Shown: positions 11,106 to 60,400 of the stretch, in pieces | How the letters are laid out: every line of letters starts with the position of its first letter | Numbering within the stretch: the stretch's first letter is position 1 | Origin: Mimachlamys varia | Lineage: Eukaryota > Mollusca > Bivalvia > Pectinida > Pectinidae | Assembly (NCBI GenBank): GCA_947623455.1 | Contig: OX392527.1 | Location: 10,040,001 to 10,104,000 of the forward strand | Length of the DNA stretch: 64,000 bases | Direction of reading: 5' to 3' | Translations under genes and position numbers: made by a program | The notes under the pieces: generated by a model | The model's database searches: none | Seen by the model: only the letters and a program-made list of their open reading frames with translations | What the model was told of the DNA's origin: nothing

Positions 11106-14100
11106 GTATTATCAATAGGGGACGAGTCACCGCTTCAGGTATTATCAATTAGGGCGGGTCACTGCTTCAAGTATTGTCAATAGGGGCGGGCTACTGATTT
11201 TAGTAATATTAACAAAGGACGGACCGATGCTTCAGTGTAACAAATAGAGAGAAGTTATTGATACAGGTTTTATCAATATCACTGCTTCAGGTACTGTATA
11301 AACGGGATGGGCTAATGCGTCCGGTAATATATCAGGGACGGGCCATTGATACAGGTTTTATCACTAAGAGCAGGTCACCGCCTGAAGTGTAACAATAAAG
11401 CACGGGTAATTCCTTCGCGAACAATACAGGGCCGCCCATTGTGTATAATAAATATGGGCGGGCCACTGTTTCACGTATAACAATGAGGGGCGGACCACTG
11501 CTGAATGTATTCGATAAGGGACGGGCCATTGCTTTAGGTAAAAACAATAAGGTGCGGGCCAGTTTTTGTGATAATTTTAAATTAAGATAGACTGTGATAT
11601 GACTTTAGTTCAGCTGAAAATTGTGTGTATTTATTACATGACTTTTAACTAACACATGTATTTTACTAACAAGAGGACCATGTGGAAGATTAGCCTTTGG
11701 TTAAACATGTATTTTATCCTCTGAAAATAAAGTTTATTATTATTATTATTATTATTACTGTTTTAAGTATAAAAATAAGGGGCGGGTCACTGCTTCAGGT
11801 AAAACAATAGGGAGCGGGCCACTGTTTATGTACAAGAAGGGGCGGGCGAATGTTTATTTACAACAAAAAGGGACGGGCCACTGTTTATGTACAACATGGG
11901 TCACTGTTTATGTACAACAACAAGGGGCGGGCGAATGTTTATTTACAACAATACTGTTTCATGTAAAACAATAGGGAGCGGGCCACTGTTTATGTAAAAG
12001 AAGGGGCGGGTCACTGCTTCAGGTAAAACAATAGGGAGCGGGCCACTGTTTATGTACAAGAAGGGGCGGGTCACTGCTTCAGGTAAAACAATAGGGAGCG
12101 GGCCAATGTTTATGTACAAGAAGGGGCGGGCGAATCTTTATTTACAACAAGAAAGGGCGGGCCACTGTTTATGTACAACAACAAGGGGTGAGTCACTGTT
12201 TATGTACAACAACAAGGGGCGGGCCACTGTTTATGTACAACAACAAGGGGCGGGCGAATGTTTATTTACAACAACAAGGGGCGGGCCACTGTTTATGTAC
12301 AACAACAAGGGGTGGGCCACTGTTTATGTACACCAAAAAGGGGCGGGTCACTGCTTCAGGTAAAACAATAGGGAGCGGGCCACTGTTTATTTACAACAAC
12401 AAGGGGCGGGCCACTGTTTATGTACAACAGCAAAGGGCGGGCCACTGTTTATGTACAACAAAAAGGGTTGGGACACTGTTTATGTACAACAAGAAGGGGC
12501 GGGCCAATGTTTATGTACAACAACAAGGGGCGGGCCACTGTTTATGTACAACAATAAGGGGCGGGCCACTGATTATGTACAACAACAAGGGGCGGGTCAC
12601 TGCTTCAGGTAAAACAATAGGGAGCGGGCCATTGTTTATGTACAACAAGAAGGGGCGGGCGAATGTTTATTTACAACAAGGGGCGGGCCACGGTTTATGT
12701 ACAACAAGAAGGGTCGGGCCACTGTTTATGTACAACAACAAGGGGCGGGCCACTGCTTTATGTATAACAAAAAGGGATGGGCCACTGTTTATGTATAACA
12801 ATACAGGGGCGGGTCACTGCTATATGTATAACAATATGGGGCTGGCCACTGTTTATTTATAAAAATAAGGGGCGGGACACTGCTTCAGGTGAAACAATAA
12901 GAGGCGGGCCACTGCTTTATGTACAAGAATAAGGGGCAGGTCACTGTTTTATGTATAAGAATAGGGGGCGGGCCACTGCTACATGTATAACCATTAGTGG
13001 CGGGCCACTGCTACATGTATAACCATTAGTGGCGGACCACTGCTACATGTATAACAATAAGGGGCGGACCACTGCTACATGTATAACCATTACTGGCGGA
13101 CCACTGCTACATGTATAACAATAAGGGGCGGGCCACTGCTACATGTATAACAATAAGGGGCGGACCACTGCTACATGTATAACAATAAGGGGCGGACCAC
13201 TGCTACATGTATAACAATAAGGGCGGGCCACTGCTACATGTATAACAATAAGGGCGGGCCACTGCTACATGTATAACCATTAGTGGCGGACCACTGCTAC
13301 ATGTATAACAATAAGGGGCGGGCCACTGTGACATGTATAACAATAAGGGGCGGGCCACTGCTACATGTATAACAATAAGGGCGGGCCACTACTTCATGTT
13401 TAACCATTAGTGGTGGACCACTGCTACATGTATAACAATAAGGGGCGGGCCACTGTGACATGTATAACAATAAGGGGCGGGCCACTGCTACATGTATAAC
13501 AATAAGGGGCGGGCCACTGCTACATGTATAACAAAAGGGGCGGACTACTGCTACATGTATAATATTAAGGGTTATGTAATTGGTTCAGAAATTATTGCCA
13601 AGAGGTTCTGCTGATGAAGTGGAAGTCTCAAAGTTACTGTGCCCAGGGTATATTCTATACACACATGCCATCATCATTACCTGCCACATTGTGTGTGCTA
13701 GTGTTTCCTAGAATGGGGTGGTGTCGCTTTGTCCTTGTGTCTCCACTCACCAGTAAACCACGGGATACTCCTGAGTTTTGAGTGGTTAACTACAGCAGAA
13801 TGTCGGGACCGAGAGCACGTACATGCATAATGGTTGTATGATGATTCATGCTTCCCTCCCCTGTAATATATATGATAAGCATTGTTCAAGTACCTTTTTA
13901 GTATGCTGTATAGGTGTATGATACACAAAGATTGGAATAATTTTACAGCGAGGAGGCGCATGACGGCTTCAGTAACCCAAACAACTGGGATGTTGTCATA
14001 GGAGAGTACAATCAGTACCAAAAAGAGGCTGGGGAAATCACAGCACATATTGATGAAATACATCTCCATAGCAACTTCTCAGGTATGTAATCACCAACCA

Positions 14101-17100
14101 AAGCTATCAAAAAATTCACCTTTCTCATTTTTCGTACATTAATTCTATCAACCGATACATCAACGCGTTTGTTTTACCCAACATACCCATAAGTCTGTAA
14201 CAGTAGAACATTTCCTTGCTTTAACTTCAATTATATTTGTTGGATTCTACTCTTCATGCTAAATGTGATTATGTGGATGCCTTGTTCCGAGATACACATT
14301 TTGTTTGATACCTCGTTCTCGGATATATATTTTGGTTGATACCTCGTTCTCAAATATACATTTTGGTTGATACCTCTTTCTCAGATATACATTTTGGTTG
14401 ATACCTCGTTCTCAAATATACATTTTGGTTGATACCTCGTTCTCAAATATACATTTTGGTTGATACCTCGTTCTCAAATGTACATTTTCGTTGATACCTC
14501 GTTCTCAAATATACATTTTGGTCGATACCTCGTTCTCAGATGTGCATTTTGGTTGGATACCTCGTTCTCAAATATACATTTTGGTCGATACCTCGTTCTC
14601 AGATGTACATTGTGGTTGGATTCCTCGTTCTCAAATATACATTTTGGTTGATACCTCGTTCTCAGATGTGCATTTTGGTTGGATACCTCGTTCTCAAATA
14701 TACATTTTGGTTGATACCTCTTTCTCAGATATACATTTTGGTTGATACCTCGTTCTCAGATGTGCATTTTGGTTGGATACCTCGTTCTCAAATATACATT
14801 TTGGTTGATACCTCGTTCTCAAATATACATTTTGGTTGATACCTCGTTCCCAGATATACCTTTTGGAAGATACCTCGTTCTCAGATATATCTTTTTGAAG
14901 ATACCTCGTTCTCGGGTGTACATTGTGGTTGGATTCCTCGTTCTCAGATATACATTTTGGTCGATAAAAAAAATCAGAGAATACCAAAGCGTCAACAAAA
15001 CCATAATTCGAACTCAAAATCGATTAATCTTAGGGCAAAATAGGAACAAAGGAAAGATTTACATGGAAACTCTCGTAAAAGCACAAGAGAATAAGACCAG
15101 GTGTTCCGGAAGAGTAAGCGTCTTCTGCTTCATCGACGACACCCGTCATGTAAATCTTGGTCATATCCAAGTAAGCAACAATCCTCAAAATGAGAACCGA
15201 GTCATCATTGTCATTATACAACAAGTAAACACACTAACAAGCAAACTCAAAAACGTCCATCTTCATATCACACAAAGATACAGAATATTTCTCAATGATA
15301 TCAAGATGGCGATACCTAGTTCTCATATGTACATTTTGGATGATACCTCGTTCTCACCGATACATTTTGGTTGATACCTCGTTCTCACCGATACATTTTG
15401 GTTGATACCTCGTTCTCAGATATATATTTTGGTTGATACCTCGTTCTCACCGATACATTTTGGTTGATACCTAGTTCTCAAATATACATTTTGGTTGATA
15501 CCTCGTTCTCAAATATACATTTTGGTTGATACCTAGTTCTCAGATGTACATTTTGGTTGATACCTCGTTCTCAAATATACATTTTGGTCGATACCTCGTT
15601 CTCAAATGTACATTTTGGTTGATACCTCGTTCTCAAATATACATTTTGGTTGATACCTCGTTCTCAAATATACATTTTGGCTGATACCTCGTTCTCAGAT
15701 GTGCATTTTGGTTGGATTCCTCTTTCTCAAATATACATTTTGGTTGATACCTCGTTCTCGGAGATACATTTTGGTTGATACCTCCTCAGAGATACATTTT
15801 GGTTGGATTCCTCTTTCTCAAATATACATTTTGGTTGATACCTCGTTCTCAGATATACATTTTGGTTGATACCTCGTTCTCAGAGATACATTTTGGTTGA
15901 TACCTCGTTCTCAAATATACATTTTGGTTGATACCTCTTTCTCAGATATACATTTTGGTTGATACCTCGTTCTCAGATGTGCATTTTGGTTGGATACCTC
16001 GTTCTCAAATATACATTTTGGTTGATACCTCGTTCTCAAATATACATTTTGGTTGATACCTCGTTCTCAGATGTGCTTTTTGGTTGGATTCCTCTTTCTC
16101 AAATATACATTTTGGTTGATACCTCGTTCTCAGATATACATTTTGGTTGATACCTCGTTCTCAGAGATACATTTTGGTTGATACCTCGTTCTCAGAGATA
16201 CGTCTTGGGTGATATATAGTTTTCCTACCTAACGCATTGTAAGAAACCAACTTACATTTTTTTTGTTCCTGTTACAGTGAACACCCTGCTCTATGACATA
16301 GCCCTACTGAAGTTGAGACCAATCAAACAGCTACAACTAGAAGACGTAGCTGATCTAGATGAAGGGGAATTCCAACCTGGCCAGCAATGTTCTGTAGCGG
16401 GATGGGGCCAAGTCTCTTTCCGTAAGTCGGACTTTGACTTACATATCACTTCTTGTACTTGTGTCCTCTTTATATGGTTATTAATCTGTATATATGTTAT
16501 CGTATCTCTGCTAATGATTGAACTTTGACCTTTCAGATCCCTATGGTTGGGGCAATTTTATTCCTTTAATCACCTCCGTCTGTTTGATGGACAATGACTT
16601 GTGCAGTGAAATGTACTCTGCCTCAAGAACCCACACCTTCTTCATTGATCAAACAACTATATGCGCAGGTTCCGACGAGGGTCACGACGCGTGCTTGGTA
16701 AGCCAGTGACGGTGATGTTTTAATATAGGAGTTTGATCTTATCCGTACTTTTATTTTATTTTTTCAATTTACATTTTTCTTTTTATGGAGGCGTTAGTAA
16801 CGCCATGCAAACAAACCGGATATACAGAGTTTGAGACACCTAGGGGTAGTTTCCATTATTACTATATTTGGGTAAATACGGACAAGCGGAACACTTCTTA
16901 CATGGATCTTAAAATGACATAAACTTCCCATAATATGTTATGATAACTCCGTTCATTTTAAATGCTTTTTAAAAGAACATTATAGAATCATGCAGAATGA
17001 CCATATTAGGAAAATTGGTTTACCATTACGCCATCTGGTTTGTGAAAAACCTATCCAATATGGCTGACGTAGAAACATTCGCTTCAAACCACAGATTTTG

Positions 17101-18717: not shown

Positions 18718-19302
18718 AACAAGGGGCACTCGGGCGACAAGGTACATACATGTACCAGGTAGTGTGCGCATAGCCAGGCTAACACGATCCTGACTAGTTA
18801 GAAATGAAAATGTATTGTAATCCGCACAAGATGACACCAGACACAATGTGGAACTCACTATAAGTTTTAATGTGGAATCATGTTTTATATGTTATTAGTA
18901 CAACTATTTTGTAACAAAGATATTTTTCTTAAGAGATAATAAATCAATATGAAGTCCTCAAACACTTTCACTTTTTTCTCATTTCAAAGAACTTTAATTT
19001 AATCATTGTGTTCCTTTTTTCAACTGTAATTCAGATAATTATTGTGCACACTGTTTCACAATGTAACAATCAATAAAACCCTGAGTATCTACTACTAGTT
19101 AATCCTTTGGTGTTTCTGTTAAAAGTACATATGATTACAAACACCAGGTTCTAGGTTAAAAACACTCTCCCTATTTAGAAGGGTGACCCACCATATTGGA
19201 CCTTTAAATTCAACTTATACAACTATTCAAAAATCTAGTCATTTCATATAAAACAAGAAATGTGAGTACAACATGATCATCCCTGTACCCGAACACATAT
19301 TG
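18718..19302. other. Protease 3' flank
   Basis: Likely 3' UTR up to about 18.96 or 19.1 kb, then unique intergenic sequence leading to the 43-bp array. Confidence 0.5.
18938..18943 (+). promoter_or_regulatory. Candidate polyadenylation signal of the protease
   Basis: AATAAA 221 nt after the stop codon, in AT-rich sequence. A second AATAAA lies at 19,072-19,077. Which is used cannot be told. Confidence 0.45.
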
Positions 19303-20998: not shown

Positions 20999-21436
20999 CA
21001 ACAAATTAATAGAAACATGGGATCTGATGGAAACGTGTTGATGGTATTGCCATGCTAAACAGTCGGGTTTTCCTATGAGTATTTTAGAAATATGTAATGC
21101 TAAATACCACAAAAAAAGAAATCAAGCAATAGATACTGTAATAGAGTGGGGCTTCATTGTGTGATAAACATATAACAGGTGATTTGTTTACAGTAATGAT
21201 CAATGTTGTAGGAAAACTGCTGAAAATCAATGCAAACTTTCTAACACCACTGTATATAAATGGGATGATATCAACAGCAATGAAAAATTGATGGAAGAAA
21301 TTGGAAATTACACCAGCATTCCATCTGTAAACCACTAGGTTGAAGCCATACACACCAAGTTTCTAATTAGATGTTAAAGTACAGACAAGCTTACAATCTG
21401 ACCTTTGACCCATCAGCTTTGGCACCAATATTAGGG
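20999..21436. other. Unique sequence between two arrays
   Basis: AT-rich, no gene supported. It lies 3' of GMCL1 and could be its distal 3' UTR, but no AATAAA was seen on the minus strand. Confidence 0.4.
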
Positions 21437-24057
21437 GTATTAGACTGGTACCGACACTTCCATCATACCACAGGTAGACTGGTACTGACACCTCCATCAT
21501 ACCACAGGTAGACTGGTACCGACACCTCCATCATACCACAGGTAGACTGGTACCGACATCTCCATCATATCACAGGTAGATTGGTACCGACATCTCCATC
21601 ATGCCACAGGTAGACTGGTACCGACAACATCATCATGCCACAGGTAGACTGGTACCCACACCTCCATCATGCCACAGGTAGACTGGTACCGACACCTCCA
21701 TCATACCAAAGGTAGACTGGTACCGACATCTCCATCATGCCACAGGTAGACTGGTACCCACACCTCCATCATACCACAGGTAGATTGGTACCGACATCTC
21801 CATCATGCCACAGGTAGACTGGTACCGACACCTCCATCATATCACAGGTAGATTGGTACCGACATCTCCATCATGCCACAGGTAGACTGGTACCGACATC
21901 TCCATCATGCCGCAGGTAGACTGGTACCCACACCTCCATCATACCACAGGTAGACTGGTACCCACACCTCCATCATACCACAGGTAGACTGGTACCCACA
22001 CCTCCATCATACCACAGGTAGACTGGTACCCACACCTCCATCATACCACAGGTAGACTGGTACCCACACCTCCATCATACCACAGGTAGACTGGTACCCA
22101 CACCTCCATCATACCACAGGTAGACTGGTACCCACACCTCCATCATACCACAGGTAGACTGGTACCCACACCTCCATCATACCACAGGTAGACTGGTACC
22201 CACACCTCCATCATACCACAGGAAGACTGGTACCGACACCTCCATCATAACACAGGTAGACAGGTACCGACACCTCCATCATACCACAGGTAGACAGGTA
22301 CCGACACCTCCATCATACCACAGGTAGACAGGTACCGACACCTCCATCACACCACAGGTAGACTGGTACCGACACCTCCATCACACCACAGGTAGACTGG
22401 TACCGACACCTCCATCACACCACAGGTAGACTGGTACCGACACCTCCATCACACCACAGGTAGACTGGTACCGACACCTCCATCACACCACAGGTAGACT
22501 TGTACTGACACCTCCATCACACCACAGGTAGACTGGTACTGACACCTCCATCATACCACAGATAGACTGATACTGACACCTCCATCACACCACAGGTAGA
22601 CTGGTACTGACACCTCCATCATACCACAGGTAGACTGGTACTGACACCTCCATCATACCACAGGTAGACTGGTACCGACACCTCCATCATACCACAGGTA
22701 GACTGGTACCGACACCTCCATCATACCACAGGTAGACTGGTACCGACACCTCCATCATACCACAGGTAGACTGGTACCAACACCTCCATCATACCACAGG
22801 TAGACTGGTACTGACACCTCCATCATACCACAGGTAGACTGGTACCGACACCTCCATCATACCACAGGTAGACTGGTACTGACACCTCCATCATACCACA
22901 GATAGACTGGTACCGACACCTCCATCATACCAAAGGTAGACTGGTACCGACATCTCCATCATGCCACAGGTAGACTGGTACTGACACCTCCATCATACCA
23001 CAGGTAGACTGGTACCGACATCTCCATCATGCCACAGGTAGACTGGTACTGACACCTCCATCATACCACAGGTAGACTGGTACTGACACCTCCATCATAC
23101 CACAGATAGACTGGTACTGACACCTCCATCATACCACAGGTAGACTGGTACTGACACCTCCATCATACCACAGTTAGACAGGTACTGACACCTCCATCAT
23201 ACCACAGATAGACTGGTACTGACACCTCCATCATACCACAGATAGACTGGTACTGACACCTCCATCACACCACAGGTAGACTGGTACTGACACCTCCATC
23301 ATACCACAGGTAGACTGGTACCCACACCTCCATCATACCACAGGTAGACAGGTACTGACACCTCCATCATACCACAGGTAGACTGGTACCGACACCTCCA
23401 TCATACTACAGGTAGACTGGTACTGACACCTCCATCATACCACAGGTAGACTGGTACCAACACCTCCATCATACCACAGGTAGACTGGTACTGACACCTC
23501 CATCATACCACAGGTAGACTGGTACCGACACCTCCATCATACCCCAGGTAGACTGGTACCGACACCTCCATCATACCACAGGTAGACTGGTACTGACACT
23601 TCCATCACACGACAGGTAGACTGGTACTGAAACTTCCATCACACCACAGGTAGACTGGTACCGACACCTCCATCATACCACAGGTAGACTGGTACTGACA
23701 CCTCCATCATACCACAGGTAGACTGGTACTGACACCTCCATCATACCACAGGTAGACTGGTACCGACACCTCCATCACACCACAGGTAGACTGGTACCGA
23801 CACCTCCATCATACCACAGATAGATCGGTACCGACACCTCCATCATACCACAGGTAGAGTGGTACCGACATCTCCATCATACCACAGGTAGACTGGTACC
23901 CACACCTCCATCATACCACAGGTAGACTGATACCGACACCTCCATCATACCACAGGTAGACTGGTACCGACACTTCCATCATACCACAGGTAGACTGGTA
24001 CCGACACCTCCATCATACTACAGGTAGACTGGTACCGACACCTCCATCATATTACAG
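21437..24057 (-). repeat. 34-bp minisatellite seeded by the GMCL1 stop-codon region
   Basis: About 77 copies of a 34-bp unit. On the minus strand it reads GTACCAGTCTACCTGTGGTA then TGATGGAGGTGTCG. The last coding bases and stop region of GMCL1 read GTACCAGTCATTTAGTGTGA then TGGATGTG, the same order with scattered changes. The array begins about 20 bp after the stop, so it is 3' UTR or immediate flank. Confidence 0.85.
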
Positions 24058-24076
24058 ATTTTAACTAACACATCCA

Positions 24077-24427
24077 TCACACTAAATGACTGGTACATCT
24101 GATTGTCTGTACTCCTTTATCAGAAGCCTGTATCAGCTGACTCACACAGGCGATGGTTTGAACACCTTTTTCGGGGCCCTGTACTAGTTGAGACGGGATT
24201 GTTTGTACTCCTATATCACAGCCAGTCACTGGCTGTCCACATACAGTCTGTACACCAGTATCACAGTGACTGTCCACCTGACCACTCCCTTGGAAACCAG
24301 CCTTGATCATGTCACAGTCCAGTTTGATGGCTGGATGGCCAGAATCAGGTGGTGTGGTCAGCAACAAGTTGACTGTGATGTGAAGAGGGAAGACAAATCC
24401 TTGATCCACTGTCAACACCACCACTTC
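24077..24427 (-). CDS. GMCL1: GMCL1 exon 14 with GVQT-repeat tail
   Basis: Acceptor GTATATTTACAG. Starts EVVVLTVDQGFVFPLHITVN, aligning with the family C-terminus, then adds about 90 residues. GVQT occurs at residues 507-510, 522-525, 537-540 and 554-557, each in a D/E-x-GVQT-I/V setting. Codons differ between repeats, so they are not a recent DNA duplication. Ends CTSHLV then TGA at 24,077-24,079. Confidence 0.9.
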   Translation of the reverse strand, partial: EVVVLTVDQGFVFPLHITVNLLLTTPPDSGHPAIKLDCDMIKAGFQGSGQVDSHCDTGVQTVCGQPVTGCDIGVQTIPSQLVQGPEKGVQTIACVSQLIQASDKGVQTIRCTSHLV

Positions 24428-27400
24428 CTGTAAATATACAAAGTGTCACTGTCAACACCACCACTTCCTGTAAATATACAAAGTGTCACTGTCAACACTG
24501 CCACTTCCTGTAAATATACATAGTGTTACTATCAACACCACCACTTCCTGTAAATATACATAGTTTCACTGTCAACACTGCCACTTCCTGTAAATATACA
24601 TAGTTTCACTGTCAACACTGCCACTTCCTGTAAATATACAAAGTGTCACTGTCAACACTGCCACTTCCTGTAAATATACAAAGTGTCACTGTCAACACCA
24701 CCACTTCCTGTAAATATACAAAGTGTTACTGTCAACACCACCACTTCCTGTAAATATACAAAGTGTTACTGTCAACACCACCACTTCCTGTAAATATACA
24801 TAGTGTCACTGTCAACACCACCACTTCCTGTAAATATACAAAGTGTCACTGTCAACACCACAACTTCCTGTAAATATACATAGTGTTACTATCAACACCA
24901 CCACTTCCTGTAAATATACATAGTGTCACTGTCAACACTGCCACTTCCTGTAAATATACATAGTTTCACTGTCAACACCACCACTTCCTGTAAATATACA
25001 AAGTGTCACTGTCAACACTGCCACTTCCTGTAAATATACATAGTGTTACTATCAACACCACCACTTCCTGTAAATATACATAGTTTCACTGTCAACACTG
25101 CCACTTCCTGTAAATATACATAGTTTCACTGTCAACACCACCACTGCCTGTAAATATACATAGTTTCACTGTCAACACCACCACTTCCTGTAAATATACA
25201 AAGTGTCACTGTCAACACTGCCACTTCCTGTAAATATACATAGTGTCACTGTCAACACCACCACTTCCTGTAAATATACAAAGTGTCAGTCAACACCACC
25301 ACTTCCTGTAAATATACATAGTGTAACTGTCAACACCACCACTGCCTGTAAATATACAAAGTGTCACTGTCAACACCACCACTTCCTGTAAATATACATA
25401 GTGTCACTGTCAACACCACCACTTCCTGTAAATATACAAAGTGTCACTGTCAACATTGCCACTTCCTGTAAATATACATGGTGTTACTATCAACACCACC
25501 ACTTCCTGTAAATATACATAGTGTCACTGTCAACACCACCACTTCCTGTAAATATACATAGTGTCACTGTCAACACCACCACTTCCTGTAAATATACATA
25601 GTGTCAGTCAACACCACCACTTCCTGTAAATATACATAGTTTCACTGTCAACACCACCACTTCCTGTAAATATACATAGTTTCACTGTCAACACCACCAC
25701 TTCCTGTAAATATACATAGTTTCACTGTCAACACCACCACTTCCTGTAAATATACAAAGTGTCACTGTCAACACCACCACTTCCTGTAAATATACATAGT
25801 TTCACTGCCAACACCACCACTTCCTGTAAATATACATAGTTTCACTGTCAACACCACCACTTCCTGTAAATATACATAGTTTCACTGTCAACACCACCAC
25901 TTCCTGTAAATATACATAGTTTCACTGTCAACACCACCACTTCCTGTAAATATACAAAGTGTCACTGTCAACACCACCACTTCCTGTAAATATACATAGT
26001 TTCACTACCAACACCACCACTTCCTGTAAATATACATAGTTTCACTGTCAACACCACCACTTCCTGTAAATATACATAGTTTCACTGTCAACACCACCAC
26101 TTCCTGTAAATATACATAGTGTCACTGTCAAAACCCCCCACTTCCTGTAAATATACAAAGTGTCACTGTCAACACCACCACTTCCTGTAAATATACAAAG
26201 TGTCAGTCAACACCACCACTTCCTGTAAATATACATAGTGTCACTGTCAAAACCCCCCACTTCCTGTAAATATACAAAGTGTCACTGTCAACACCACCAC
26301 TTCCTGTAAATATACAAAGTGTCACTGTCAACACCACCACTTCCTGTAAATATACAAAGTGTCACTGTCAACACCACAACCTCCTGTTAATATACATAAT
26401 GTCACTGTCAACACCACCACTTCCTGTAAATATTCATTTTTTCATCATTAATACATGTAATTTTATTTGAACTACATTCTGTACAGACAGTTTATATTCA
26501 CCATCTGTACACTTGTTTTCTTATCATTCAAAGTTCCATACTGTTTCCACTTACTAATTATCGGCAAATATTTACTTCAAGTGACTAGCTATTGGGCCAT
26601 ACACTTCATCAACATGTCACCAACTGATAAATACTTTCATTTGTCCAACTCACTTTCACTGTTTCTTAATGATCCTCATCACTCAATCCCTTCAACTCAT
26701 CATACATACATTACCTTTACCAACAGACTATCAACACATGTTCACAAACAAAAACTTGTACAGAGGGGGATTGTAGTAGTAATTATTGGATACATTCCAA
26801 AACTGTTCTTTTGGCTTTCATTTCTTGGGAAACAGTTGGAAACTAGAATTTTCTCCACCGATAACTTACGTAACATGTTTTCCATTAGAATGTTGTTATG
26901 AAGTGTAGATAGCAGTTATTGATTTAGATGGACACAGATACGATGCCTGTCTCATTGATCCGACTTACCTCGTCCTTAGATAAACTTTTATGCTTCAAAC
27001 CAGTCGACTTGAAAGTCTTCATTTTACCATCCTCATCAAAACACGCAACATTTAACCTGGAGATTTAAAATTGATATGTAATATCAACTTTACTTCATTC
27101 ATAAATATATACAGTTCACAATAAGATCAATCACATTCGAATAGGAGTTCTTAACTTGAGCAAATCTGTCTCCTTAAATCAGGTATTTGAAAGTCACATT
27201 GATTTCTCAACATATTTAAACACATTAAGGCATTAGAACTGATTTTAGCATGTCCTGCATAATACAAAAACAGGCTGAGTTTATGCTCAGTTCTCAATAT
27301 TAAGTTTCTCTATTAACAAAAAAACTGTTAAATTAGTAAGTTTTGTTAAGTACTCTATGTTATATATCACAGTATCTATAACTCACCTGTATGTTACATG

Positions 27401-45400: not shown

Positions 45401-48400
45401 TAAAGAAAGTCTGCCCTTGGCCTTGACCTTAAGACTTAGAACCCTGAAGCACAACGATGTCCAAGATATATCCATACATGTACTTGATCTTTGTATGTAG
45501 TTTTATAAAAAAGAAAGCAAAAAATGTGTTAAAGAATTATATCGTTGTGTGCTTATGTTGAATTTGAACGGAACAGAAAGACACGGACCATGCCTATACT
45601 CCTTTCCCTCTGTTAAATGGTGTGTGCATAGAAATGGTGGTTACAACTACTGGCTTGATCATCAGTACTATGGAAGTGGAGTGACTGGTTCACCTGTTGT
45701 CAGTATAATGTGACTGGGTGCGGGTGTTCTGCTAGGGCCTTCGGTATATACAAGTTGTGGACTATTGCAAGGAGGCTTACATGAACCTACAACAGTCTTT
45801 CAAAATGTTGTTGACTTTCCTTTCCTGGAATAAAACCTAAAAAAGGATCTACTGTACCTTTAATAATATCTAGGTATTTCACTTACACTGTACCCATAAT
45901 AATATCGATGGCATTTCACTAACACTGTCCCTTCAATAATACCTACTAGGTATTTCACTTACACTGTCCCTTTATTGATATTTATATATTTAACCTATAT
46001 GGATTAAGATCCACTGTACTTCCATTAATATTCATTTCACCTCGGTTAATTGAGAATTATTTTATTATCAAAGAGCTAGTACAGTACTTTACCTTCTTCG
46101 TTAATATTGGTATCGGCCACATCAACGTAAATCTCAGACTGTGAGGACTCCTTCCAGGAACCGCTGAACATACAGGAGAAGTACGGCGACTATAAAGTAA
46201 CAAACAGGAGAAGTACGGCCACTATAAAGTAACATACAGGAGAAGTACGGCGACTATAAAGTAACAAATAGGAGAAGTACGGCGACTATAAAGTAACAAA
46301 TAGGAGAAGTACGGCCACTATAAAGTAACATACAGGAGAAGTACGGCCACTATAAAGTAACAAACAGGAGAACTACAGCGACTATAAAGTAACATACAGC
46401 AGAAGTACGGTGACTATAAAGTAACATACAGGAGAAGTACGGCGACTATAAAGTAACAAACAGGAGAAGTACGGCGACTATAAAGTAACATACAGGAGAA
46501 GTACGGCGACTATAAAGTAACATACAGGAGAAGTACGGTGACTATAAAGTAACAATCAGGAGAAGTACGGTGACTATAAAGTAACATACAGGAGAAGTAC
46601 GGTGACTATAAAGTAACAAACAGGAGAAGTACGGCCACTATAAAGTAACAAACAGGAGAAGTATGGCGACTATAAAGTAACATACAGGAGAAGTACGGCG
46701 ACTATAAAGTAACACACAGGAGAAGTACGGTGACTATAAAGTAACAAACAGGAGAAGTACGGCCACTATAAAGTAACATACAGGAGAAGTACAGCGACTA
46801 TAAAGTAACAAACAGGAGAAGTACAGCGACTATAAAGTAACAAACAGGAGAAGTACAGCGACTATAAAGTAGCATACAGGAGAAGTACGGCGACTATAAA
46901 GTAACATACAGGAGAAGTATGGCGACTATAAAGTAACAAACAGGAGAAGTACGGCGACTATAAAGTAACATACAGGAGAAGTACAGCGACTATAAAGTAA
47001 CAAACAGGAGAAGTACAGCGACTATAAAGTAACATACAGGAGAAGTACGGTGACTATAAAGTAACATACAGGAGAAGTACAGCGACTATAAAGTAACATA
47101 CAGGAGAAGTACAGCGACTATAAAGTAACATACAGGAGGAGTACAGCGACTATAAATTAACAAACAGGAGAAGTACAGCGACTATAAAGTAACATACAGG
47201 AGAAGTACGGTGACTATAAAGTAACATACAGGAGAAGTACAGCGACTATAAAGTAACATACAGGAGAAGTACAGCGACTATAAAGTAACATACAGGAGGA
47301 GTACAGCGACTATAAATTAACAAACAGGAGAAGTACAGCGACTATAAAGTAACATACAGGAGAAGTACGGCCACTATAAAGTAACATACAGGAGAAGTAC
47401 AGCGACTATAAAGTAACATACAGGAGGAGTACAGCGACTATAAAGTAACAAACAGGAGAAGTACAGCGACTATAAAGTAACATACAGGAGAAGTACAGCG
47501 ACTATAAAGTAATATACAGGAGAAGTACAGCGACTATAAAGTAACATACAGGAGAAGTACAGCGACTATAAAGTAACAAACAGGAGAAGTACAGCGACTA
47601 TAAAGTAACAAACAGGAGAAGTACGGCCACTATAAAGTAACAAACAGGAGAAGTACGGCCACTATAAAGTAACATACAGGAGAAGTATGGCGACTATAAA
47701 GTAACATACAGGAGAAGTACGGCCACTATAAAGTAACATACAGCAGAAGTACAGTGACTATAAAGTAACATACAGGAGAAGTACAGTGACTATAAAGTAA
47801 CATACAGGAGAAGTATGGCGACTATAAAGTAACATACAGGAGAAGTACAGTGACTACAAAGTAACATACAGGAGAAGTACAGTGACTATAAAGTAACATA
47901 CAGGAGAAGTACGGCCACTATAAAGTAACATACAGGAGAAGTACGGCCACTATAAAGTAACAAACAGGAGGAATACGGCGACTATAAAGTAACATACAGG
48001 AGAAGTACGGCGACTATAAAGTAACATACAGGAGAAGTACGGCCACTATAAAGTAACATACAGGAGAAGTACGGTGACTATAAAGTAACAAACAGGAGAA
48101 GTACGGCGATTATAAAGTAACATACAGGAGAAGTACAGCGACTATAAAGTAACAAACAGGAGAAGTACAGCGACTATAAAGTAACAAACAGGAGAAGTAC
48201 AGCGACTATAAAGTAACAAACAGGAGAAGTACAGCGACTATAAAGTAACATACAGGAGAAGTACGGCCACTATAAAGTAACATACAGGAGAAGTACGGCG
48301 ACTATAAAGTAACATACAGGAGATGTACGGCGACTATAAAGTAACAAACAGGAGAAGTACGGTGACTATAAAGTAACATACAGGAGAAGTACAGCGACTA

Positions 48401-51400
48401 TAAAGTAACATACAGGAGAAGTACGGAGACTATAAAGTAACAAACAGGAGAAGTACGGAGACTATAAAGTAACATACAGGAGAAGTACAGCGACTATAAA
48501 GTAACATACAGGAGAAGTACGGAGACTATAAAGTAACAAACAGGAGAAGTACAGCGACTATAAAGTAACATACAGGAGAAGTACGGAGACTATAAAGTAA
48601 CAAACAGGAGAAGTACAGCGACTATAAAGTAACATACAGGAGAAGTACGGCCACTATAAAGTAACATACAGGAGAAGTACGGAGACTATAAAGTAACATG
48701 CAGGAGAAGTACGGTGACTATAAAGTAACATACAGGAGAAGTACGGTGACTATAAAGTAACATACAGGAGAAGTACGGCCACTATAAAGTAACATACAGG
48801 AGAAGTACGGCCACTATAAAGTAACATACGGGAGAAGTACGGAGACTATAAAGTAACATACAGGAGAAGTACAGCGACTATAAAGTAACAAACAGGAGAA
48901 GTACGGAGACTATAAAGTAACATACAGGAGAAGTACAGCCACTATAAAGTAACATACAGGAGAAGTACAGAGACTATAAAGTAACAAACAGGAGAAGTAC
49001 AGAGACTATAAAGTAACAAACAGGAGAAGTACGGAGACTATAAAGTAACATACAGGAGAAGTACGGCAACCATAAAGTAACATACAGGAGAAGTACAGCC
49101 ACTATAAAGTAACATACAGGAGAAGTACAGCCACTATAAAGTAACATACGGGAGAAGTACGGCAACCATAAAGTAACATACAGGAGAAGTACAGCGACTA
49201 TAAAGTAACATACAGGAGAAGTACGGCGACTATAAAGTAACAAACAGAAGAAGTACAGCGACTATAAAGTAACAAACAGGAGAAGTACGGCAACTATAAA
49301 GTAACAAACAGGAGAAGTACGGCAACTATAAAGTAACATACAGGAGAAGTACGGCCACTATAAAGTAACATACAGGAGAAGTACGGCGACTATAAAGTAA
49401 CATACAGGAGATGTACAGCGACTATAAAGTAACATACAGGAGAAGTACGGTGACTATAAAGTAACATACAGGAGAAGTATGGCCACTATAAAGTAACATA
49501 CAGGAGATGTACAGCGACTATAAAGTAACATACAGGAGAAGTATGGTGACTATAAAGTAACATACAGGAGAAGTACGGCAACTATAAAGTAACATACAGG
49601 AGAAGTACGGCCACTATAAAGTAACAAACAGGAGAAGTACGGTGACTATAAAGTAACATACAGGAGAAGTACGGCCACTATAAAGTAACATACAGGAGAA
49701 GTACGGCCAATATAAAGTAACATACAGGAGAAGTACGGCGACTATAAAGTAACAAACAGGAGAAGTACGGCCACTATAAAGTAACATACAGGAGAAGTAC
49801 GGCCACTATAAAGTAACAAACAGGAGAAGTACGGCAACTATAAAGTAACATACATGAGAAGTACAGCAACTATAAAGTAACATACAGGATAAGTACAGCG
49901 ACTATAAAGTAACATACAGGAGAAGTACGGCGACTATAAAGTAACAAACAGGAGAAGTACGGCCACTATAAAGTAACATACAGGAGAAGTAAGGCCACTA
50001 TAAAGTAACATACAGGAGAAGTACAGCGACTATAAAGTAACATACAGGAGAAGTACGGCCACTATAAAGTAACATACAGGAGAAGTACAGCCACTATAAA
50101 GTAACATGCAGGAGAAGTACAGCGACTTTAAAGTAACAAACAGGAGAAGTACGGTGACTATAAAGTAACATACAGGAGAAGTACGGCCACTATAAAGTAA
50201 CAAACAGGAGAAGTATGGTGACTATAAAGTAACATACAGGAGAAGTACGGCCACTATAAAGTAACATACAGGAGAAGTATGGTGACTATAAAGTAACAAA
50301 CAGGAGAAGTACGGTGACTATAAAGTAACATACAGGAGAAGTACGGCCACTATAAAGTAACATACAGGAGAAGTACGGCCACTATAAAGTAACATACAGG
50401 AGAAGTACAGCGACTTTAAAGTAACAAACAGGAGAAGTACGGTGACTATAAAGTAACATACAGGAGAAGTACGGCCACTATAAAGTAACATACGGGAGAA
50501 GTACGGCCACTATAAAGTAACATAACACAAAGCTTTAGAGATATTCCTGCCATACAGTCATCTTCAGTTATGTATAAAGAAACATGACACAAAGGCTTCA
50601 GAATTCTTCTTACAACACTGTCATAATAACAGCGTATATGTTAACGTTTCTGTTATGAGATTAAAAATCAAAATTTAATGTAGCCGTCAAGATCAGAATG
50701 CATAATGCATATGTTCTTATAACTTGATTATATATACTATACAATACCTGAAATAAGTACAGTTTATATAGATACAGCTGTGATATACTGTATAGATACT
50801 ATACCCTAGATAAGTACAGTTTATATATATAAAGCTGTGATATACTGTATAGATACTATACCCTCGATAAGTACAGTTTATATATATATATATAGCTGTG
50901 ATATACTTTATATATACCCGAGATAAGTACAGTTTATGTTGATATAGCTGTGATATACTGTATATATACTATAAAGATATAGCTGTGATATACTGTATAT
51001 GTACTATACCTGAGATAAGTACAGTTTATATATACATTGTATATAGCTGTGATATACTGTATATTTACCTGAGATAAGTACGGTTTATGTTGATATAGCT
51101 GTGATATACTGTATATATACCTGAGATAAGTACAGTTTATGTTGATATAGCTGTGATATACTGTATATATACTGTAAAGATATAGCTGTGGTATACTGTA
51201 TATATACTATAAAGATATAGCTGTGATATACTGTATATATACCTGAGATAAGTATAGTTTATGTTGATATAGCTGTGACATTCTGTATATATACTATAGA
51301 GAATAAAAGATATAGCTGTGATATACTGTATATATACCTGAGATAAGTACAGTTTATGTTGATATAGCTGTGATATACTGTATATATACTATAAAGATAT

Positions 51401-54400
51401 AGCTGTGATATACTGTATATATACCTGAGATAAGTATAGTTTATGTTGATATAGCTGTGACATTCTGTATATATACTATAGAGAATAAAAGATATAGCTG
51501 TGATATACTGTATATATACCTGAGATAAGTACAGTTTATGTTGATATAGCTGTGATATACTGTATATATACCTGAGATAAGTACAGTTTATGTTGATATA
51601 GCTGTGATATACTGTATATATACTATAAAGATATAGCTGTGATATACTGTATATATACCTGAGATAAGTACAGTTTATGTTGATATAGCTGTGATATACT
51701 GTATATATACTATAAAGATATAGCTGTGATATATACTGTATATATACCAGAGATAAGTACAGTTGATGTTGATATAGCTGTGACATTCTGTATATATAGT
51801 CTATAAAGATATAGCTGTGATATACTGTATATATACTATAAAGATATAGCTGTGATATATACTGTATATATACTATAAAGATATAGCTGTGATATACTGT
51901 ATAAATACTATAAAGATATAGCTGTGATATACTGTATATATACTATAAAGATATAGCTGTGATATATACTGTATATATACCAGAGATAAGTACAGTTTAT
52001 GTTGATATAGCTGTGACATTCTGTATATATACTATAAAGATATAGCTGTGATATACTGTATATGTACTATACCTGAGATAAGTACAGTTTATATATATAT
52101 AACTGTGATATACTGTATATATACTATACCCTAGATAAGTACAGTTTATATATATAGCTGTGATATACTGTATATATACTATAAAGATATAGCTGTGATA
52201 TACTGTATACATACCTGAGATAAGTACAGTTTATGTTGATATAGCTGTGATATACTGTATATATACTGTAAAGATATAGCTGTGGTATACTGTATATATA
52301 CTTTAAAGATATAGCTGTGACATTCTGTATATATACTATAGAGAATAAAAGATATAGCTGTGATATACTGTATATATACCTGAGATAAGTACAGTTTATG
52401 TTGATATAGCTGTGATATACTGTATATATACTGTAAAGATATAGCTGTGGTATACTGTATATATACTTTAAAGATATAGCTGTGACATTCTGTATATATA
52501 CTATAGAGAATAAAAGATATAGCTGTGATATACTGTATATATACCTGAGATAAGTACAGTTTATGTTGATATAGCTGTGATATACTGTATATATACTGTA
52601 AAGATATAGCTGTGGTATACTGTATATATACTTTAAAGATATAGCTGTGACATTCTGTATATATACTATAGAGAATAAAAGATATAGCTGTGATATACTG
52701 TATATATACTATAGAGATATAGCTGTGATATACTGTATATATACCTGAGATAAGTACAGTTTATGTTGATATAGCTGTGATATACTGTATATATACTATA
52801 GAGATATAGCTGTGATATACTGTATATATACCTGAGATAAGTATAGTTTATGTTGATATAGCTGTGACATTCTGTATATATACTATAGAGAATAAAAGAT
52901 ATAGCTGTGATATACTGTATATATACCTGAGATAAGTACAGTTTATGTTGATATAGCTGTGATATACTGTATATATACTATAAAGATATAGCTGTGATAT
53001 ACTGTATACATACCTGAGATAAGTACAGTTTATGTTGATATAGCTGTGATATACTGTATATATACTGTAAAGATATAGCTGTGGTATACTGTATATATAC
53101 TATAAAGATATAGCTGTGATATACTGTATATATACCTGAGATAAGTATAGTTTATGTTGATATAGCTGTGACATTCTGTATATATACTATAAAGATATAC
53201 AGTTGTGGTATCGCACAACGCACCAAAAACTGTGTGCATCGTGCATACATCGTTCGCCCATGGTGCGCACAACCGGGCGATCTAAAGATCGTGCCTTTAT
53301 GTGTGCGATTAAATCGCACACACGCACGATTTGGTACAATTGGTCGATACATATTACGGAATGAAAAACATATGGAACCCTTTTGTCCAAAAACTATTTA
53401 AATTCGCATCATATTTATTGGGATTATGTCAATTTAACAATATACATGTACAGTAAACAGTATTACAGTGATCATAAGACAGCCAAGTGCGGGTTAAGCT
53501 ACCAGGTATCAGAATATGTAAATAACATGCCGGAGTTTTACCTATCCCGTGTGCGGCGATACGCTACGACAGCCATTACCGAGCGACCGTTATGAAAACA
53601 AACTGGACTCTTATAATCAGTTATTTGAAAAACCCTCCCCTCCCCAACACTTTACCTGTGTTTTCACACCTAGGCGAGTGTTGTAAGTGCCCCGGGCCAG
53701 AGATATCTACATATATTGGCCATGTACAGGTACAGTTTATAACTTGGTAAAACTGGCAATATTTACTTGAATGAGAACTTGTCAATATGAGTTGAAAGTT
53801 TACATACATGCGTCTATTTGGTTTGTTTCTAAAACTACAGAAATACTATTATTACTTTTTAGAAGTATATAGATAGAACTATCAGCTAATGTAAATAGTT
53901 AAAATATAGAAATATGTTTAAAACAACTAGCGCGAAACCGTATATATTGTTAAACCATTTCTAAATTTACATCAACCACGATTGTCATCGCACAATGTTA
54001 GTCTATCGTGCGCCCACATGTGCGTTAGAAATAATCGCCCAGGATCGCATCGTTCTCACATCGTGCATACACCGTTCGCCCATCGTGCGCCCACCGCACA
54101 TCGTGTAACGTTGTGCGATCCCACAACTGTAGCTGTGATATACTGTATACATACCTGAGATAAGTATAGTTTATGTTGATATAGCTGTGACATTCTGTAT
54201 ATATACTGTAAAGATATAGCTGTGATATATACTGTATATATACCTGAGATAAGTACAGTTTATGTTGATATAGCTGTGATATACTGTATATATACTATAA
54301 AGTTATAGCTGTGATATACTGTATACATACCTGAGATAAGTACAGTTTATGTTGATATAGCTGTGATATACTGTATATATACTGTAAAGATATAGCTGTG

Positions 54401-57400
54401 ATATACTGTATATGTACTATACCTGAGATAAGTACAGTTTATATATATATAGCTGTGATATACTGTATATGTACTATACCTGAGATAAGTACAGTTTATG
54501 TTGATATAGCTGTGATATACTGTATATATACTGTAAAGATATAGCTGTGGTATACTGTATATATACTTTAAAGATATAGCTGTGACATTCTGTATATATA
54601 CTATAGAGAATAAAAGATATAGCTGTGATATACTGTATACATACCTGAGATAAGTACAGTTTATGTTGATATAGCTGTGATATACTGTATATATACTATA
54701 AAGTTATAGCTGTGATATACTGTATACATACCTGAGATAAGTACAGTTTATGTTGATATAGCTGTGATATACTGTATATATACTGTAAAGATATAGCTGT
54801 GATATACTGTATATATACTATAAAGATATAGCTGTGATATACTGTATATATACCAGAGATAAGTATAGTTTATGTTGATATAGCTGTGACATTCTGTATA
54901 TATACTATAGAGAATAAAAGGTATAGCTATGATATACTGTATATATACCTGAGATAAGTACAGTTTATGTTGATATAGCTGTGATATACTGTATATATAC
55001 TACAAAGATATAGCTGTGATATATACTGTATATATACCTGAGATAAGTACAGTTTATGTTGATATAGCTGTGATATACTGTATATATACTATAAAGATAT
55101 AGCTGTGATATATACTGTATATATACCAGAGATAAGTACAGTTTATGTTGATATAGCTGTGACATTCTGTATATATAGTCTATAAAGATATAGCTGTGAT
55201 ATACTGTATATATACTATAAAGATATAGCTGTGATATACTGTATATGTACTATACCTGAGATAAGTACAGTTTATATATATATAGCTGTGATATACTGTA
55301 TATATATACTATACCCTAGATAAGTACAGTTTATATATATAGCTGTGATATACTGTATATATACTATAAAGATATAGCTGTGATATACTGTATATATACT
55401 AAACCCGAGATAAGTACAGTTTATATATATAGCTGTGATATACTGTATACATGTATATGAGTCATTATCAAAAAAGTACCAGATCTAAAAGTGAAAAAAT
55501 CAGAAAAACAACTTTCTTTGACCGACAACTTTTATGGTTTAAGTAAAAGGAGATACATTGCTGGTTACAAAATCATTGTTTGTCCATTTTAATTTTTACC
55601 TGTTCAGTTACTTTGGTAACACTAAGGATCGCAGGTAAGTTAAAATGTCTGTGGTGTTACCATTATTGAATTTGTTGTTTTTGTTGGGTTAAAACATGCC
55701 AGTTCTTTGCTATTTGATTTATTTAATTGATAAAGTTATAACATAATGAATTTTTATTACATATACCTCATTTAAATACCATTTGAAGATATTTATTGGA
55801 ATATGTCCCGACTCCTGTACTTTTGCACTCGAGGGATGTGCATTATTTCTTTTAAATAAAGTTAGAACTAAAGATTCATGAAAACAGTAATTAATTTGCA
55901 AACATAAAATGCTACAGATAATTACTGGATGGCTAATTGTTTCTTTTCACCTTTAATAAATTTAATATGAGTTGATTTTTGTGATGGTTACACCATGGAC
56001 ATTTGATAAACACCAAAGACAACTGTAACACCACAGACATTTTGTCCATTGTGTTACCATTTTAAATATCATAATACATTTATTTTAATCAATTTCACTA
56101 TTGACACACATTGTCTTTGTTTCCAAGTTGTAAAGAGGGCCATTCTTGATCACCTGAAATGTTGTGCTGGATAATACCAGCATTGAATGTCTGTGGTGTT
56201 ACCATTGTCATCATCTAGTGCATATTGTAATTGAATTATATTTCATCAATATGCATATAATTATATAGTAATGTGTCCTAAACAAACAATTTAATTCATT
56301 AACTAAAATATAAATTGGTTGTTTATGATGGAAATTCATATTATGCATCTTCTCTTGTCACCGAATTGTCTGTGGTGTTACTAAGTAATGTCTTAGCCAT
56401 TGCTCACAGAGAGAATACATGCTTTAATAGCTGTCACACTAGTCCTAGTGCTTACTATGTTGTACAAATAACATTATACAATAATTTCTCTGTTTATGAA
56501 TCTTATAATATGAATCTTCCCATTATCTTAGATATTATTTAGGATTTTTTCTATTCCATTGTCTGTGGTGTTACTATAATGGTATCGCCAATATTCATGT
56601 CCTTGGTGTTACCAATTCAAAGCCCTCTTCTCTCACAATGATATATTCCATTTTGAGAACTGTTAGCTAATGTCATAGGTTTAGAATTCATCTTACTAAT
56701 AATATATTTTATGGTCTGTATTATAGGTAAACTTTTGTTAGTGTTGCAAAGATTTGACTCTGGTTTTACTTATCTAAGTCTGTAGTGTTACTATAATTGT
56801 CTTTGGTGTTACTGTTTTGAGAGAATCTTGATTTAAGAGTATAGAATCTGAATTTAAGAGTTTTCTTTGATTAGCAATGAACAATAATCATTGTTTTGGA
56901 ATTTAACTTATTCAAATCATAATGCTTTTATTTTTTCCAATAAAATTGATTCATAAACGGGTATGATGTCTGTAGTGTTACCAAATATTCGTCTGTGGTG
57001 TTACCTGTTTGATCAGTAACACTACAGACAATAACACCACAGACATTTTAGATATGTTTATAGATTAAAATTATAACAATTGGTAATTGTGCAAAGCATG
57101 ATAGCTGTATTTATACTACATTGCAACCTCTTTTAAATAATATAAATCTTTTTATTGAACATAGGGTAAAACTGTGAAATAATGTGGTAACACCATGGAC
57201 AATTTGAAATACACAGTTGGTGAGACTTGATTTCGATTGCTTCCAATTTAAAACCGTCCTGCTTTCAACTTCAAAATGCCATGTGAAAATGAACAGGGGA
57301 TAGATATGCAATAAATTCATTATAGATGGTTGTACTCAGTTGATTTAAAGTTTCTCTATTGAACCAAAATACTCATGGTAACACCAAGGACAAAAACTTA

Positions 57401-60400
57401 TGGGACAGGTAAACATTTTCTTTAAAAAACCTTTAAATATTTTCTTTTTGCCTAAAAGTACTTATTTGTCAATTTAAATGGTAATTATCAACTAAACTAT
57501 CCCCATATTTTGTATAATACCCCATTAAAAATGTTTTTAAATGAGCTTGAATATTGAGGATTTACCATCGGACACACCCTTTTTTTGGGTGAAAGGCTAA
57601 TATTATTGTTAAAAAAAAATAAATTTCATGTCTGTCTTTTAAAACGTGACTACTAGATCTGTAATTGTTGGTGTATTAGCAAAACATTTACTTTATTTCA
57701 TGTAGATTTCACAGAAATAAACGACAAAGTTACGGACAGCGATTTGGTACTTTTCTGATAATGACTCATATACATGTACTATAAAGATACAGCTGTAATA
57801 TACTGTATATATACTATACCTGAGATAAGTACAGTTTATGTTGATATAGCTGTGACATTCTGTATATATACTATAAAGATATAGCTGCGATATACTGTAT
57901 ATATACCTGAGATAAGTACAGTTTATGGAGCTTCCATTCCTTTCCAAGTGCACTGATTGTAATGTCACTATTTTCTCCATCAAGGAATAGAGTCTGATAG
58001 ATATAATTTGATGTTGATTTTATTCTTTTCCTGAAAATAGGATAAGAAATTGTACGTGTATACAAGTACCTTTCAAACAACAAATAATGAACATACATGT
58101 GTAAGATTTGTATTGTTGATTAATTTGTAATGTCAAAGTATTATAGCAATGCATGCACCGACTTAATATTGGTAATCAAAAGTGATCTCAAAACATGTTC
58201 ATCTCTCAATAACAATGCCCAAGGCCAACAAATGTAATTTTATGGATTGTTATAGGGTGGTTATCATGATGATCAAAACATCTCTCAGATATGATGCCCA
58301 GCAATTATATACATGTACATGTAGATGGTTATGGGGTAATGAACATCTCTCAATAGTCAATTTTGTTAAAATTGTCACATTCATCCTAACTCACAAATTT
58401 AGTCCATGTTGGTGTTTGGACAACTATCCAAGCATGAAGCTTTCATGTAATTAAAGTTCAGAACGAAAAGTCTGTGAGAATTGAAGAACGAGAATGTAAG
58501 TCAAGCAGGGATCCAGACTAGGACAGGAAGGAAATGGTCTGCAAGTCAGTCAGTTGAGCAGGCAGAAGGGGTTCTCAAGCATTGTGACATCATCCCAGTA
58601 AGATGCTCAGGGTGAGTAAGATTGGGAACAACACATCCCCAAAGATGGGAAGGAACAGACGACAAGAAGAGCACTACCGCAGTGGGAAATTCAATGAGAA
58701 AAGGAGGGGCTAGGAAAGCATGGACAGACCTGTGGCACTTTGGATCAATGAGGACCCCGATCCTGTTACGATCATCAGGGTTAGCGCTGAGTATTTTATA
58801 AATGGACAGACCTGTGGCACTATGGATCTATGAGGACCCCGATCCTGTTACGATCATCTGGGTTAGTGCTGAGTATTTTATAAATGGACAGACCTGTGGC
58901 ACTATGGATCAATGAGGACCCCGATCCTGTTACGGTCATCAGGGTTAGGGCCGAGTATTTTATAAATGTACAGACCTGTGGCGCTATGGATCAATGAGGA
59001 CCCCGATCCTGTTACGGTCATCAGGGTTAGCGCTGAGTATTTTATAAATGGACAGACCTGTGGCACTATGGATCAATGAGGACCCCGATCCTGTTACGGT
59101 CATCAGGGTTGGCGCTGAGAGTTTTATAAATAGACAGACCTGTGGCACTATGGATCTATGAGGACCCCGATCCTGTTACGGTCATCAGGGTAAGCGCTGA
59201 GTGTTTTATAAATAGACAGACCTGTGGCACTATGGATCTATGAGGACCCCGATCCTGTTACAGTCATCAGAGTTAGTGCTGAGTATTTTATAAATGTACA
59301 GACCTGTGGCACTATGGATCTATGAGGACCCCGATCCTGTTCCAGTCATCAGGGTTAGCGCTGAGTATTTTATAAATGGACAGACCTGTGGCACTATGGA
59401 TCTATGAGGACCCCGATCCTGTTACGGTCATCAGGGTTAGCGCTGAGTATTTTATAAATGGACAGACCTGTGGCACTATGGATCAATGAGGACCCCGATC
59501 CTGTTACGGTCATCAGAGTTAGCGCTGAGTATTTTATAAATGGACAGACCAGTGGCACTATGGATCTATGAGGACCCCGATCCTGTTACGGTCATCAGAG
59601 TTAGCGCTGAGTATTTTATAAATGTACAGACCTGTGGCACTATGGATCTATGAGGACCCCGATCCTGTTAGTCATCAGGGTAAGCGCTGAGTGTTTTATA
59701 AATAGACAGACCTGTGGCACTATGGATCTATGAGGACCCCGATCCTGTTACGGTCATCAGAGTTAGCGCTGAGTATTTTATAAATAGACAGACCTGTGGC
59801 ACTTTGGATCAATGAGGACCCCGATCCTGTTACGGTCATCAGAGTTAGCGCTGAGTATTTTATAAATGTACAGACCTGTGGCGCTATGGATCAATGAGGA
59901 CCCCGATCCTGTTACGGTCATCAGGGTAAGCGCTGAGTGTTTTATAAATAGACAGACCTGTGACACTATGGATCAATGAGGACCCCGATCCTGTTACGGT
60001 CATCAGAGTTAGCGCTGAGTATTTTATAAATAGACAGACCTGTGACACTATGGATCAATGAGGACCCCGATCCTGTTACGGTCATCAGAGTTAGCGCTGA
60101 GTATTTTATAAATAGACAGACCTGTGGCACTATGGATCTATGAGGACCCCGATCCTGTTACGGTCATCAGAGTTAGCGCTGAGTATTTTATAAATAGACA
60201 GACCTGTGGCACTATGGATCTATGAGGACCCCGATCCTGTTAGTCATCAGGGTAAGCGCTGAGTGTTTTATAAATAGACAGACCTGTGGCACTTTGGATC
60301 AATGAGGACCCCGATCCTGTTAGTCATCAGGGTAAGCGCTGAGTATTTTATAAATAGACAGACCTGTGGCACTATGGATCTATGAGGACCCCGATACTGT

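Follow-up and report, generated by a model that had tools for sequence, protein, structure and literature searches.

Genes and tandem arrays in the window

We analysed a 64,000-nucleotide (nt) stretch of the genome of the bivalve Mimachlamys varia (assembly GCA_947623455.1, contig OX392527.1, positions 10,040,001 to 10,104,000), hereafter the window, in which tandem arrays take up most of the intron sequence of two convergent genes. The gene models were built from the sequence alone, using reading frames and splice signals. The forward-strand gene encodes a trypsin-like protease (Pfam Trypsin, E 1.5e-48), and the reverse-strand gene is GMCL1 (germ cell-less), identified by a match over query residues 1-428 to PDB 9ijj, 'Germ cell-less protein-like 1' (E 8e-139). 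Thirteen GMCL1 exons, numbered 2-14, join in a single frame of 517 codons plus stop, and exon 1 is either absent from the window or was not recognised within it. For the protease, the boundaries of intron 3 are approximate and the start codon is our choice. In these models, both coding frames are intact if the exon-proximal splice sites alone are used. The C-terminal tail of GMCL1 past the 9ijj match bears several GVQT(I/V) motifs (24077-24427, reverse strand).

Tandem Repeats Finder (TRF) returned 62 rows, which reduce to about 20 distinct arrays; together these occupy 32.8 kb of the window. The arrays make up 21,958 of the 32,399 nt (68%) of GMCL1 intron sequence and 66% of the intron sequence of both genes taken together. 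The eight arrays assigned below to splice junctions total 21,959 nt and the other intronic arrays 3,281 nt (Table 1).

Array units and the adjacent splice junctions

A first-pass annotation of the window had claimed that eight arrays have units running across the boundary of the adjacent exon, five of them seeded at donors (protease exon 1 and GMCL1 exons 2, 6, 9 and 12) and three at acceptors (GMCL1 exons 3, 12 and 14). It had proposed aligning the array consensuses against the exon ends, and this comparison was done in two ways. In the first test, 20 array consensuses were compared with the window, in which arrays were masked except for the exons and 25 nt on either side, and the null was the best of 10 shuffles. 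All eight arrays matched a junction of their own intron above this null, which confirmed the assigned sites (Table 1); these scores take in at most 25 nt of exon-adjacent array, since the copy in the exon usually forms the last unit of the array. For the main protease block and the exon 12 acceptor array, stray copies of the repeat in the same intron outscored the junction. In the second test, the overlapping exon copy was cut away and each junction was ranked against 400 random non-array 40-mers, for 25 array-junction pairs. The rank p was 0.0025-0.0075 at all eight junctions. For the protease exon 1, exon 2 and exon 12 acceptor arrays, one or two of the 400 null pieces equalled or beat the junction, and these pieces could themselves be strays from that array. 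Two further small values are not surprising among 25 pairs and were set aside: p was 0.017 for the exon 12 acceptor array tested on the exon 11 donor, and 0.010 for the intergenic array at 19284 tested on the exon 14 stop.

The copied exon part extends to the exon border in all eight arrays, and exon 12 is amplified at both of its edges; its acceptor array stops 54 nt from the exon. Unit sizes of 32-91 nt lie in the minisatellite range. Among the arrays that could be parsed, all but that of exon 2, the coding part per unit is shortest for protease exon 1 (11 nt) and longest for exon 6 (44 nt), close to the 11-45 nt given by the annotation. In the main protease block and the exon 12 acceptor array, most units have lost the splice site. 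The exon 2 donor array has further copies beside the exon at 57787-57927, and 41 donor-like copies in all, including the true site. It is broken by non-array blocks at 53200-54129 and 55450-57786, with copies of its own unit on both sides, which suggests that these blocks are later insertions.

Table 1. Exons, junction arrays and other arrays discussed in the text, with positions in the window. Scores are those of the first test, junction against best of 10 shuffles.
Feature	Positions	Strand	Unit and remarks	Score	Basis
Protease exon 1	10624..11105	+	ends ...LTAGHCF; donor AG/GT at 11105/11106		translation; Pfam Trypsin
Protease exon 1 donor array	11095..13571	+	32 nt, 11 coding; blocks 11095-11190 (3 copies) and 11762-13571 (57 full units), stray copies between	29.5 vs 13.5; main block 17.0 vs 14.0	TRF, both tests
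Protease intron 2 array	14276..16214	+	31 nt; p 0.37 and 0.24 vs adjacent junctions		TRF, both tests
Ninth array	21441..24051	-	34 nt; adjoins GMCL1 stop codon, no splice site	11.5 vs 12.5	TRF, both tests
GMCL1 exon 14 with stop	24077..24427	-			gene model
Exon 14 acceptor array	24407..26437	-	40 nt = 19 intron + 21 coding; AG in 50/50 full units	43.5 vs 14.0	TRF, both tests
GMCL1 exon 13	26969..27056	-			gene model
Exon 12 donor array	27356..30703	-	34 nt = 29 coding + 5 intron	51.5 vs 15.0	TRF, both tests
GMCL1 exon 12	30675..30820	-			gene model
Exon 12 acceptor array	30875..31947	-	43 nt; extra piece 32439-32519	22.5 vs 15.5	TRF, both tests
GMCL1 exon 11	32622..32700	-			gene model
GMCL1 exon 10	33627..33696	-			gene model
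Exon 9 donor array	34169..38543	-	91 nt, about 23 coding	41.0 vs 15.0	TRF, both tests
GMCL1 exon 9	38523..38663	-			gene model
GMCL1 exon 8	38954..39050	-			gene model
GMCL1 intron 7 array	39174..39908	-	33 nt; not junction-derived		TRF, second test
GMCL1 exon 7	41146..41230	-			gene model
Exon 6 donor array	41747..42826	-	66 nt = 44 coding + 22 intron; 16 full units	62.0 vs 12.5	TRF, both tests
GMCL1 exon 6	42783..42914	-			gene model
GMCL1 exon 5	43735..43781	-			gene model
GMCL1 intron 4 array	43863..44118	-	23 nt; not junction-derived		TRF, second test
GMCL1 exon 4	44485..44582	-			gene model
GMCL1 intron 3 array	45851..45972	-	37 nt, 3.3 copies; not junction-derived		TRF, second test
GMCL1 exon 3	46093..46189	-			gene model
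Exon 3 acceptor array	46167..50524	-	32 nt = 9 intron + 23 coding; 136 full units	45.5 vs 13.5	TRF, both tests
Exon 2 donor array	50732..55449	-	blocks 50732-53199 and 54130-55449	114.5 vs 16.0	TRF, both tests
GMCL1 exon 2	57907..58030	-			gene model

A rival explanation is chance, with arrays arising anywhere in introns and a reader having chosen a window in which several happen to meet a junction. The count took in the intronic arrays that have at least 3 copies, the two protease blocks as one array, and a random unit was scored if it covered at least 5 coding and at least 2 intron bases of any junction, which gives a chance of 0.04 to 0.16 per array. Left out of this first count were the arrays at 2720, 5663, 19284, 21441, 58723 and 61196, which lie outside the known introns of both gene models, together with TRF sub-rows of counted arrays and the rows at 2632 and 54051 (2.0 and 2.1 copies). 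Eight of the 12 arrays span a junction against 0.95 expected (P 3.9e-7), or 7 of 10 in GMCL1 alone (P 1.6e-6); expressed as odds, 8 to 4 against 0.95 to 11.05 is an excess of about twentyfold. The excess persists when every chance is doubled (P 7.6e-5), when the minor rows at 17642, 55990, 56822 and 57017 are added as misses (P 5.5e-6), when those at 54051, 58723 and 61196 are added too (8 of 19, P 3.5e-5), the last two of which may lie in GMCL1 intron 1, and when the two most decayed arrays, those of protease exon 1 and the exon 12 acceptor, are scored as misses (6 of 12, P 1.2e-4). Since this null rests on present-day non-array intron length and on one selected window, it speaks for this locus only. 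Within the window the junction bias is real, as the annotation had proposed. A reader did choose the window and 4 of the 12 intronic arrays are ordinary, but the P values above, together with the independent report from chicken that over 90% of exon sources are no more than 1 base away from the border of the exon (PMC12954441), make chance a highly improbable explanation.

The four ordinary arrays could be imagined as decayed junction arrays, an idea to which the second test gave no support. The array in protease intron 2 matched the GMCL1 exon 13 donor in the first test (14.5 against 13.5), which, the junction being that of a different gene, we take as chance. A ninth array had been described as a less exact derivative of the GMCL1 stop region. 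It does adjoin the stop codon and gave p = 0.0025 in the second test, yet its consensus was not significant, and we do not count it as a splice-junction case. Outside the known introns, an 82-nt array in the region 58723-60860 has a separate copy at 60762-60860; a reading frame beside it gave no Pfam match but resembles a fragment of an old mobile element. Copies of the 52-nt unit at 2720-2823 occur at 95-129, 1220-1272, 1497-1531 and 1634-1663, on both strands (region 88-2823), an arrangement like that of a small mobile element with inverted repeats.

Copied splice sites and the direction of copying

The splice sites carried by the units are retained to very different degrees. AGGT is present in all full units of the exon 9 and exon 6 arrays (47/47 and 16/16), in 83/99 of the exon 12 donor units and in 31/41 of the donor-like exon 2 copies, but just 6 of the 57 full units in the main protease block carry it; 40 of the 57 read AT/GT and 46 keep GT. 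The statement of the annotation that all donor-type units contain AG/GT is thus wrong. Among acceptor arrays, AG is found in 132/136 full units for exon 3 and in every one for exon 14, but in only 3/24 for exon 12. The exact donor 9-mer of the true site occurs 48, 16 and 77 times for exons 9, 6 and 12, respectively, each count including the true site, and the exact acceptor context is retained in only 55/136 (exon 3) and 18/50 (exon 14) units. Within the units, the columns of the splice dinucleotides are not conserved better than the others in any consistent way.

These counts bear on two alternatives. The arrays could be functional, their decoy or recursive splice sites regulating splicing or shielding long introns from premature polyadenylation, and the many intact donors and acceptors speak for this. 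Because the splice dinucleotides are not consistently better kept, however, homogenisation alone explains the intact decoys; the loss of most sites in the main protease and exon 12 acceptor units and the poor retention of the exact acceptor context also argue against a function, which we consider unlikely. The copied sites have not been purged, nor are they uniformly retained, a pattern that fits homogenisation with no selection acting on the site. The second alternative is intron gain in progress, in which tandem duplication of AG/GT makes new introns. The presence of AG/GT in many donor units favours it, as does the proposal of this route for amphioxus in the globin paper of 2010 (PMC3087553), where arrays of this kind, named mirages, were tied to the duplication model; the idea is not new. 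Against it stand the scarcity of AG/GT in the main protease block, the unit lengths of 32, 34, 40, 43 and 91 nt, which are not multiples of three, and the position of the arrays, which in our gene models sit at the edges of introns whose removal both proteins require. We regard intron gain as very unlikely here. Of the suggestion that the arrays are intron growth caught in progress, the growth part stands, given the share of GMCL1 intron sequence that they occupy; nothing at the locus points to a new intron position.

Agreement of units with their consensus ranges from 98.7% (exon 9) down to 85% (main protease block). In the seven arrays with at least 16 full units, two units drawn at random differ by 2 to 23%. 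In six of the seven, a unit resembles its neighbours somewhat more than it does a random unit, the difference being reduced by about a quarter at most. High agreement combined with weak similarity of neighbours is as expected under mixing exchange. The same figures bear on the possibility that assembly or sequencing errors multiplied the exon edges. Kilobase tandem arrays are error-prone, and one amphioxus mirage is reported to have been misassembled (PMC3087553), but differences of this size within arrays would not be produced by read stacking. Other types of array occur alongside, and published repeats of this kind have been upheld by re-sequencing of lancelet PGBD5 (PMC3902484) and by raw nanopore reads of chicken PHF8 (PMC12954441). 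An artefact is therefore highly unlikely.

The units encode codons that are conserved in 9ijj, which makes the exon the source and the array the derivative; the junction is the seed, as the annotation had it, and not a later invader. The exon 9 units read QDS, like 9ijj, at a position where exon 9 now reads KDH, so that the array retains the older state at two residues, and arrays of this kind may serve as archives of earlier exon states. For exon 12, both the exon and 9ijj have R where the unit consensus has an in-frame stop. When flanks were inspected by eye for microhomology, only the exon 3 array hinted at a short direct repeat.

The exon 6 array, built of 22-codon units, has a reading frame that is open over its full length; counted from where exon 6 begins, this frame runs for 392 codons (41737-42914, reverse strand). 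Splicing from any later donor within the array would lengthen GMCL1 by complete repeats of 22 residues. We considered whether these could be hidden coding repeats, but the 5 synonymous and 13 nonsynonymous distinct changes, out of 46 and 140 possible, are in about the ratio expected without selection. The absence of purifying selection on this frame is as expected if the array is spliced out.

Probable intron growth from exon edges and known parallels

The arrays are, very probably, of the mirage or exon-stuttering type, in which an exon edge is multiplied on the intron side and the resulting growth is spliced out with the intron. What is observed is the tandem multiplication, on the intron side, of a stretch that straddles the exon edge, with the exon retaining its own copy. 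The arrays would grow and mix by unequal exchange, gene conversion or replication slippage, and would leave with the intron since only the exon-proximal copy abuts a complete exon. Tolerance alone is not enough to explain the junction bias, because arrays deep in an intron should be at least as tolerable. Junctions may instead seed arrays more often than deep intron does, if an exon edge interrupts recombination or replication; the candidates are that homology between divergent haplotypes ends there or that RNA polymerase pauses at splice sites.

Several points weigh against this interpretation. The evidence comes from one window, two genes and one haplotype, at the level of DNA. Four of the 12 intronic arrays (14276, 39174, 43863 and 45851), one of them 1.9 kb long, are unrelated to their adjacent junctions (p 0.22-0.82). 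The exon 12 donor units show zero excess similarity of neighbours (0.107 against 0.106). The homology-edge and pausing ideas are a leaning only and the least certain part of the proposal. That splice junctions are mutational hot spots of tandem amplification in animals generally, independently of G+C, with the sharp edge of the exon as the cause (because haplotype homology ends or the polymerase pauses there), and that this is a major driver of intron growth in affected genomes, is a tentative extension that we think rather doubtful. In summary, the junction-array interpretation of the first-pass annotation is partly supported.

The locus also poses a splicing puzzle, in that the cell would have to ignore dozens to about 130 extra donors or acceptors that resemble the true site. 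The donor minisatellite of the human 6-16 (IFI6) gene may be a parallel, although it did not turn up in a literature search. Internal tandem repeats at exon-intron boundaries have been described in human segmental duplications (PMC2812944) and, like the present arrays, are minisatellites at boundaries that alter introns. Unlike them, as far as that report describes, the human repeats average about 4 copies of 30 bp, belong to recent paralogues and often come with alternative transcripts; they are not exon edges multiplied through long introns.

Closer counterparts are the mirages of amphioxus, described in Adh3, the globins BflGb6 and BflGb9, troponin C and PGBD5 (PMC3087553; PMC3902484, which names those of lancelet troponin C and PGBD5). 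There too, as reported, minisatellite-like tandem units span the exon-intron boundary at both donors and acceptors, AG/GT is kept in many but not all units, and units are of minisatellite size (10-72 bp in Adh3, 150-160 bp in BflGb6). Amphioxus copy numbers are lower, with 6 and 3 units in two BflGb6 haplotypes and up to 7 in PGBD5, whereas in the present window a single junction can have as many as 136 copies and 4.4 kb of array, and eight junctions of two neighbouring genes are affected.

The second counterpart is the 'sequence (exon) stuttering' described in 2026 in 236 introns of 115 chicken genes, 190 of these introns lying on dot chromosomes (PMC12954441). As here, the exon edge with its splice site expands through the adjacent intron, the exons remain intact, and junction arrays are mixed with purely intronic ones. 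The chicken repeats have 1-44 copies (median 4) and occur on GC-rich dot chromosomes, and that paper ties stuttering to GC-rich genes. In contrast, G+C is 38.5% in our window and 37.8% in the GMCL1 intron arrays, and such an AT-rich locus speaks against the view that these arrays require GC-richness. The chicken paper labels the phenomenon novel, and the word 'mirage' was not found in the available text, though the amphioxus papers predate it; the present locus links these two separate reports. The phenomenon is thus already in print for amphioxus and chicken, known but unexplained, and the present locus is a very strong example of it. What is new is the scale and the AT-rich setting, and, with eight junctions amplified in two adjacent genes, it is the densest case among the published ones that we found.

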